A program made the translations under genes and the position numbers. Below the pieces are notes generated by a model. It was not told where the DNA came from and did not search any database. It saw nothing but the letters and a program-made list of their open reading frames with translations. Below, one piece after another: positions 44,132 through 60,727 of a stretch of 64,000 nt of DNA. The DNA comes from Chitinophagales bacterium (GTDB lineage Bacteria > Bacteroidota > Bacteroidia > Chitinophagales > UBA10324): positions 192,732 through 256,731 of the forward strand of contig JAIBAY010000001.1 of assembly GCA_019694975.1 (NCBI GenBank). The letters run 5' to 3'. Each line of letters begins with the position of its first letter. The first letter of the stretch is position 1.

Positions 44132-44162
44132 AAAAATAAGGGGCACCGATTTTCGATGCCCC
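44132..44162 (-). terminator. Rho-independent terminator of the Lys/Ala peptide gene
   Basis: On the minus strand GGGGCATCGA and TCGGTGCCCC form a 10-bp stem (one U-G pair) with the loop AAA, followed by TTATTTTT. It begins 24 bases after the peptide stop codon. Confidence 0.92.
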
Positions 44163-44186
44163 GTTATTCAAAAAAGCTTTGCTAAA

Positions 44187-44273
44187 TTATTTTTTCTTAG
44201 CAGCTTTTTTAGCTCCTTTTTTCGGAGCTGCTTTCTTTGCAGCCTTTTTTGCTGCTTTCTTTTTTGTAGCCAT
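44187..44273 (-). CDS. Histone H1-like Lys/Ala-rich micro-protein (28 residues)
   Basis: An ATG at 44273 opens a 28-codon frame ending in TAA at 44187. The peptide starts Met-Ala-Thr-Lys-Lys-Lys and consists mainly of AAKK units, with APKKGAKK near residues 16-23 and a final KKK. It has 14 Lys, 9 Ala (one or two Pro/Gly/Thr residues otherwise) and no acidic residue. Such AKK/PKK repeats resemble the tails of eukaryotic H1 and bacterial Hc1/AlgP-type nucleoid proteins, but here nothing else is attached. A consensus promoter with a palindrome lies upstream and a strong terminator downstream, giving an isolated transcript of roughly 180 bases. DNA or RNA condensation is the likeliest role; a cationic antimicrobial peptide is the alternative. 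Confidence 0.72.
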   Translation of the reverse strand: MATKKKAAKKAAKKAAPKKGAKKAAKKK

Positions 44274-44315
44274 AGTTTAAAATTTTCATCAAAATAAGAA
44301 TGAATCGTTTCATAA

Positions 44316-44348
44316 CAAAAATATTTTTGAACATTTTTATTCACACAA
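44316..44348 (-). promoter_or_regulatory. Predicted promoter of the Lys/Ala peptide gene
   Basis: The minus strand has TTG at 44348-44346, a 22-base spacer and TATTTTTG at 44323-44316, an exact -7 match. The start of transcription would be near 44309, about 36 bases before the ATG. Confidence 0.55.
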
Positions 44349-44360
44349 CAATGTGAATAA
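44337..44360. promoter_or_regulatory. 9+9 bp palindrome overlapping the -33 element (possible operator)
   Basis: TTATTCACA, six bases, then TGTGAATAA form a perfect inverted repeat. The six-base centre contains the predicted -33 TTG of the Lys/Ala peptide promoter. This is the position and size expected of a dimeric repressor site. It has no T-run, so it is not a terminator. The binding protein is unknown. Confidence 0.5.
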
Positions 44361-45135
44361 TGCAATCAGCATCTTCATTTGCGTAATACTGTTTCGCAGA
44401 AAAAAATTTACTGATCACAAGTTCACAAAAATTATTTTTCATTTTTTCATAAGCTTCATCAAGGCATGCAGCTGAAACATGCACAGTGTAAGGGTTTCAG
44501 CAAATCATAAAAAAAATATCATGCGCCTGATTTATTGTCCGATGAAAGTCAACAGAAAAATCTGCCGAACACAAATCGCAGAAATCAATCCTGCAATCAT
44601 GCATCAGCGCATCAAAAAAAAATGAAAATATTTTTTTTCCGGAGAACACAATTATGGTCTTCAACCATCAATCAACGACCTGTATGCGCGATTCATACGA
44701 TAAAATATTTTCGCCGCAAATTGATTTTGCAGAGAGAAATCCGGCGCACGCATAATAATCCCAGGATTGAATCAAGACCATGTTGTAACCGGCAATCATA
44801 CAATCGATCATTCAATTCATGCAATACTGCATACTCATCCAATCATCTGCATGATTTGATTTTGCGGACATGCACTCTGTTCAACAGCCGCTTTGACACC
44901 ATCCAGCTGAACAATCACACGCTTATTGTCAAAACAATTATGCATGGGTATCATACATCTGTCCGCAGCATTGACGCCGCACTTGATTCTCAAAATCATG
45001 CTGCAAAGCAATGACTGCACCGGCTGCTTCTTTCTTCAGATCACAATAAACACGGAACGCTTGTACTGCTGCGGCAGGAAACTATTTATGGGGAAATATT
45101 TTACCGGGAACCGGCGTCGGGCAGCAATGCATGCA
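44361..45135. other. 775-base non-coding island
   Basis: It lies upstream of the Lys/Ala peptide gene and downstream of the hypothetical secreted protein gene. It is AT-rich with several A- or T-runs. ATCATGC occurs at 44518, 44596 and 44995, and its complement GCATGAT at 44849. TTGATTTTGC occurs at 44721-44730 and 44856-44865. A 159-codon plus frame (TTG at 44535) has an improbable Asn/Arg/His/Cys-rich composition. I see no convincing gene, tRNA or known RNA. Confidence 0.45.
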
Positions 45136-60236: not shown

Positions 60237-60727
60237 TCTTATTCCCCCAATGATGCTCGCAAAGTAAAAAATAGTTTAGCAATGAACAACTGTATTATCC
60301 ACAAAAACGCCCATCTAAAAATATTATGAATTTATAATATGCGGCAGTATTTCAAATTTGCAGTCTCCATCAGATCGCCGCGTTACTCGCAGGCTGCTAT
60401 CTCCTCAACGCATAGCATGCTTGTCTGCCGCGTTATCCCGGGTATACAAAATGTATCATCGAACGGATAGCCATGCTGCTTGATTAATCGCGCAATGCCG
60501 CCGGATTCCTTCCCTTCAAAATAATGTTACGTACAGATAATAATGATGCAGAAACGGCCACTGCATGTTTATGCATTACACTGATGAAATCAAAAATCAG
60601 TCCGAGGCATACAACTGACAATGGGATACCAATGGCCGGTTCTCAATAGCAATAATCAGACACATCCCTACTTTTGTTTAGCCTTTTAATTAACTACATT
60701 TGCGCGCAATAAACTGCCTTTCAGTAG
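60237..60727. other. 491-base divergent intergenic region
   Basis: It separates the small secreted-protein gene from the polysaccharide locus. It holds the promoter of the phosphosugar transferase gene (60674-60702). TACTTTTG at 60669-60676 is an overlapping second -7-like box. No gene, RNA or terminator was recognised in the rest. Confidence 0.45.
60674..60702 (+). promoter_or_regulatory. Predicted promoter of the polysaccharide locus
   Basis: TTG at 60674-60676, an 18-base spacer and TACATTTG at 60695-60702 (exact TAnnTTTG, followed by C). The predicted start near 60709 leaves about 19 bases before the ATG at 60728. Confidence 0.6.

Follow-up and report, generated by a model that had tools for sequence, protein, structure and literature searches.

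A conserved gene for a 28-residue Lys/Ala peptide in Chitinophagales, with an inverted pair of DnaA-box-type half-sites upstream and a possible role in the nucleoid

The stretch of DNA analysed here (the window, 64 kb) comes from a Chitinophagales draft genome of 4.3 Mb (G000), in which it lies on contig C1, and the host family is represented by uncultured assemblies only. The minus strand harbors a short open reading frame for a free-standing peptide, which is preceded by a candidate promoter and a perfect palindrome and followed by an intrinsic terminator (Table 1). With 14 Lys and 10 Ala among its 28 residues and a net charge of +14, the peptide is Lys/Ala-dominated, strongly basic and of low complexity, as are histone H1-like proteins. 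The original prediction of a self-contained 28-codon Lys/Ala gene was borne out, since the frame has its own promoter region, terminator and conserved palindrome, and so was the 10-bp terminator hairpin, which begins 24 nt past the peptide stop. A hairpin of altered sequence is located 3' of the gene in all relatives, with double-sided changes in four of nine pairs; the GC-rich hairpin, the T-run and a pairing that is kept despite the changed sequence are those of an intrinsically terminated mRNA. Between the palindrome and a lipoprotein-like ORF the window contains nearly 800 bp (44361-45135) that are AT-rich and without a convincing gene and that include another perfect 9-6-9 inverted repeat (44615-44638); only about 100 bp are found in the corresponding place in the family genomes G003 and G010.

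Table 1. Positions of the features of the peptide locus within the window.
Feature	Position	Strand	Basis or remark
Reading frame of the free-standing Lys/Ala peptide (28 aa), MATKKKAAKKAAKKAAPKKGAKKAAKKK	44187..44273	minus	ORF and orthologues in relatives
Candidate -7 element TATTTTG	44290..44296	minus	inferred from alignment and promoter consensus
Candidate -33 element TTTG	44316..44319	minus	inferred from aligned position in A2/A3
Palindrome TTATTCACA-N6-TGTGAATAA	44337..44360		inverted pair of DnaA-box-type 9-mers, TTATnCACA
Promoter-proximal half-site TGTGAATAA (coding strand)	44337..44345	minus	38-41 nt upstream of the -7-like element
Distal half-site TTATTCACA (coding strand)	44352..44360	plus	family loci and half-site counts
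Intrinsic terminator hairpin GGGGCATCGA-AAA-TCGGTGCCCC	44140..44162	minus	10 bp; T-run to about 44132

A DNA search of relatives recovered the leader and the ORF from a second genus, where they are 88% identical, and gave weaker matches in further genera. When the loci were read individually, the full locus was identified in 13 of the 16 family genomes, representing eight genera, and a search of these genomes for the palindrome pattern agreed with this number; the sequences counted are kin, and the counts do not equal independent events. The 13 genomes share the order of palindrome, a stretch of 64-70 nt, the start AACTATGGCTAC, the K/A peptide and a hairpin terminator. The orthologous peptides comprise 23-37 aa and have the start context AACTATGGCTAC in common, and all peptide gene starts of the family carry an A at -3, which favours translation initiation in Bacteroidota (PMC6847099). 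In G001, G002 and G013 the peptide gene was not found, and as the neighbouring M23 peptidase gene was missing as well, these assemblies lack the whole locus. The gene order alaS-M23-peptide-lipoprotein-hpd-scoB-scoA is largely conserved in the family, with the exception of G008, in which the M23 gene is located on a different contig. The palindrome, on whose conservation the original prediction had partly hinged, is exact in the window and precedes the orthologous gene in 13 of the 16 family genomes. At the codon level, all differences from the window gene in three comparisons were third-position synonymous (3/3, 5/5 and 4/4), and three comparisons among other family members yielded 13 synonymous versus 7 amino-acid-changing codons. 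Because the codon changes are mostly synonymous and the architecture is conserved, these comparisons strongly indicate that the 28-codon frame is a real, overlooked gene that is conserved and translated. A low-complexity gene of 28 codons is easily overlooked by annotation and similarity search, but here the sequence and position of the gene are conserved, as are its promoter, its regulatory site and its terminator.

No match to the peptide was obtained in Pfam or NCBIfam at E <= 10, and the same searches identified no described Hc1/Hc2 or other family model; as short low-complexity queries rarely score, this is a weak test. Likewise, Rfam gave no match at the locus, and no published description of such peptides was found in a literature search. 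Histone H1-like bacterial proteins comprise about 100 residues or more and are presumed to bind DNA as polycations. With the chlamydial proteins Hc1 and Hc2 and similar Lys/Ala/Pro repeat proteins the peptide shares the Lys/Ala-rich, strongly basic and low-complexity composition, but it differs from them in its length of 23-37 residues within the family and in matching no Pfam or NCBIfam model. The gene is best filed with the histone H1-like bacterial proteins, as a variant of these.

A tie to larger nucleoid proteins, also part of the original prediction, proved to be real within the same genome. Contig C11 encodes a SWIB/MDM2-domain protein (G000 C11:43751-44097, PF02201 E = 6e-29, GTG start) with an N-terminal Lys/Ala tail that starts MATKKKAAKKAA and is identical to the peptide in its first 12 residues; the SWIB domain (PF02201) is absent from the 28-aa peptide, which consists of the tail only. 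SWIB-4 of plant plastids combines a SWIB domain with an H1 motif; it binds and compacts DNA, condenses nucleoids and can take the place of H-NS in E. coli (PMC4154389). For a chlamydial SWIB protein, binding extends over the whole genome (PMC6426960). The host's SWIB protein resembles SWIB nucleoid proteins with an H1-like tail (plastid SWIB-4; stand-alone chlamydial SWIB proteins such as Waddlia Wcw_0377), and its gene shares the tail and the box offset with the peptide gene, whereas the peptide differs in being the tail alone, encoded by its own gene and without the SWIB domain. The SWIB gene (loci L086, L193 and L229) was found in 13 of the 16 family genomes and in two of 45 sampled genomes from the order's other families.

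The palindrome was considered first with respect to chance. With up to three mismatches, such a palindrome is expected 0.09 times in the 64-kb window; the window contains three perfect 9-6-9 palindromes, compared to about 0.1 in simulated sequence, and a perfect palindrome of this type is therefore weak evidence by itself, so that conservation decides. Of 820 regions upstream of other genes in the window genome none contains it, and the family genomes hold about one palindrome each, none of them near a regulator gene. The 12 distinct sites of the family provide 24 half-sites. In these, positions 2-4 and 6-9 vary in two cases only, a single A at position 2 and a single A at position 6, whereas all four bases occur at position 5; position 1 is T, or C or G in some of the distal half-sites. 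Sites of CRP, Rex and NrdR were rejected as the identity of the palindrome on orientation or spelling.

SWIB genes carry this half-site in their upstream regions as well. Apart from genus g6, all six SWIB genes that were parsed in the family have TGTTGATAA (reverse complement TTATCAACA) 39-40 nt before the -7-like element; this set, which does not include G006, was obtained by a domain-based search in which the promoter was not used. The same search identified the SWIB gene of a genome of family f8, with TGTGAATAA at 39 nt. The leader model added four f8 SWIB genes, in which TGTGnATAA is located at 39-40 nt. The distal half-site as such is absent from the SWIB promoters, and those of f8 carry a pair of half-sites about 3 bp apart. 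Upstream of the g6 SWIB genes (L232, L233, L235-L237 and L239) no DnaA-type half-site was present. The shared half-site at the same offset, together with the alike tails, suggests that the peptide and the SWIB gene may form a small nucleoid regulon, and the box common to both makes this a concrete and testable two-gene regulon. The g6 upstream regions share a conserved TTTTCATTGGGGAAAA inverted repeat, which perhaps represents a replaced regulator. In the same genus, peptides and SWIB tails both start MATKAKKAA, and in most other genera MATKKKAA or similar, so that the two look as if they were evolving in concert.

The original prediction held that AKK-repeat peptides are known only as tails; this was not confirmed, as similar free-standing K/A peptides with the same inverted N6 geometry occur in several other Bacteroidia families. 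Their half-sites (in f27, f40, f42, f58 and f65) read TTATnAACA, TTGTTAACA or TTTTnAACA, and the family spelling TTATnCACA was not found in these more distant peptide relatives. As the palindrome was part of the model used to collect the class-level relatives, the count of these relatives is biased. In family f21 the box is absent upstream of many peptides, and TTTTCCACA is present upstream of about half of them at a differing promoter spacing, which is suggestive only. A phylum-wide search with a second model returned mostly noise.

The spelling of the half-site points to the replication initiator as the factor that reads it. The DnaA-box consensus is TTATnCACA (PMC5742627), and the family half-site is exactly this 9-mer with position 5 alone free, while the host's own box spelling may differ from the published consensus. 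When the GTDB species genomes were scanned for the pattern, ten matches were obtained. Nine were the peptide gene in Chitinophagales, and the tenth (L071) was a dnaA-oriC-rpmH region, in which TTATTCACA-N6-TGTGGATAA has the same geometry and is accompanied by further boxes. The DnaA of the window genome retains R399, D433, H434 and T436 and has the change T435S. DnaA is therefore the predicted and most likely reader of the inverted TTATnCACA pair. The palindrome thus resembles DnaA-controlled promoters and inverted origin boxes in its half-sites and in the inverted N6 pair of L071, but differs from DnaA-box origins in comprising a single pair, in its fixed distance to a promoter, in the spelling TTATnAACA in other families and in that there is no origin at the site.

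Several of these points leave room for a second reader, and the main rival to DnaA, which we rank first, is a dimeric helix-turn-helix regulator that would be conserved in Bacteroidia as a whole and have its gene at another place; the palindrome (TTATnMACA, 6-bp spacer) would be its operator. We consider this possible, if rather doubtful. The spacer is always 6 bp, in the 12 distinct family sites as well as in seven sites of other families, though the sequence changes, and a rigid spacer over several families equally suits an ordinary dimeric regulator. In addition, position 6 is C in the family and A elsewhere, where the half-site is off the DnaA consensus, and a 24-bp dimer site would tolerate this better than a DnaA box; the g6 SWIB genes without a half-site also speak against DnaA. 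However, the family half-site with its free fifth position is that of DnaA, the occurrence of about one palindrome per genome, away from regulator genes, speaks against such an operator, and the single half-site of SWIB promoters, or the closely spaced f8 pair, suits a monomer binder such as DnaA.

Whether a bound factor would activate or repress depends on the position of the core promoter. Bacteroidota promoters follow the consensus TTTG / TAHHTTTG (PMC6847099), and the window resembles these sigma-ABfr promoters in having TTTG (44319-44316) 19 nt upstream of a TA..TTG element, but differs from them in that the -7 element of the peptide gene is imperfect in most members (TACTTCG, TAGACTTG, TATTTTG). 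The counterparts of the window's TATTTTG in relatives are TACATTTG, TAACATTG, TAGACTTG or TACTTCG, and three family members have TTCTTTG, without the TA, at the inferred -7 place. The distance from the palindrome end to the TA of the -7-like element is 38-41 nt in most peptide genes of the family, and the same spacing was found in other Bacteroidia families (seven peptide genes) and for the SWIB genes of six family and five f8 genomes; as background, two of the 820 regions upstream of other window-genome genes have such a box at this spacing. That the palindrome covers the -33 element, as had been proposed, was not supported: with the conserved -7-like element it lies upstream of the core promoter with its centre at about -64 relative to the predicted transcription start, and its position would therefore fit an activator better than a repressor.

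The original prediction had instead placed the -7 element at 44316-44323, which would turn the palindrome into a repressor operator over -33. This part stood insofar as TATTTTTG at this position is a perfect TAHHTTTG with a TTG 22 bases upstream, inside the palindrome spacer, and would leave a plausible 38-nt leader. However, when the family and other Bacteroidia are aligned, nearly all relatives lack the TA of this box, whereas most family members, and other families too, retain the -7-like element further downstream at a constant distance to the palindrome. The conserved -7 element is thus probably not the box at 44316-44323, and a repressor site is unlikely.

An inverted pair of TTATnCACA boxes, with an oriC-like geometry in one unrelated genome, could also serve replication, as part of oriC or as a datA/DARS-like titration or reactivation site to which the peptide gene is merely adjacent. 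This appears quite improbable: the box-to-promoter spacing is held, and SWIB genes, which are located elsewhere, have a half-site upstream too. The locus as replication origin was rejected, as GC skew was mostly negative across the sampled part of contig C1, with neither an inversion nor a box cluster. No boxes were found beside dnaA (contig C4), and the origin of the window genome was not found among the sampled contigs, which are without a clear skew inversion. Three DnaA-type boxes, TTTTTCACA, TTATCCACA and TTATCCACA, are located in an intergenic region of contig C2 (C2:510527-510786; L099:10527-10786); this group at about 510.5 kb, the only cluster in the sampled part of the genome, shows no GC-skew inversion and is a possible titration site or origin. 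A perfect TTATCCACA occurs in isolation at window 60295-60303, one of 21 copies in the genome. Least probable is a small RNA or attenuator with the frame incidental or a leader peptide: the RNA is short, terminated and strongly folded (segment 44125-44310, z = -6.2 versus shuffles), but differences fall mainly on third positions, the frames are intact at 23-37 codons, the hairpin sequence differs freely between genera, and the next gene is convergent, so that nothing lies downstream to attenuate.

Taken as a conserved single-gene unit that encodes an H1-tail-like nucleoid peptide with DnaA as upstream activator, the locus would be read as follows, a proposal to which we give about even chances. 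With +14 in 28 residues, the peptide would most likely bind DNA non-specifically as a polycation and serve, like the tail of a linker histone but in free form, to neutralise and compact it; it may tune nucleoid compaction, perhaps in concert with the tail of the SWIB protein or in its place. DnaA, or another factor, bound near -64 would activate the peptide gene, and peptide output would be in step with the level or activity of DnaA and hence with replication. Should the peptide coat DNA and its gene be controlled by DnaA, an H1-like polycation would be adjusted with the replication cycle, somewhat like the eukaryotic tie of histone supply to S phase.

More tentatively, and with less than even confidence, the proposal may be extended to a regulon throughout the class Bacteroidia, in which histone-tail-like factors (the micro-peptide and, in some lineages, the SWIB protein) would be under an upstream DnaA-box-type switch at a fixed distance. 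If this is true, the supply of a linker-histone-like polycation would be coupled directly to the replication initiator. A further box, TTATCCACA about 122 nt upstream of the free-standing peptides of f8/g32 (L126-L131, L143, L145, L146, L148, L151, L167 and L174), was dropped because in our own reading it belongs to the coding sequence of the gene that precedes the peptide. There it is kept identically at Leu-Ser-Thr codons near the 3' end of that gene, while nearby codons vary.
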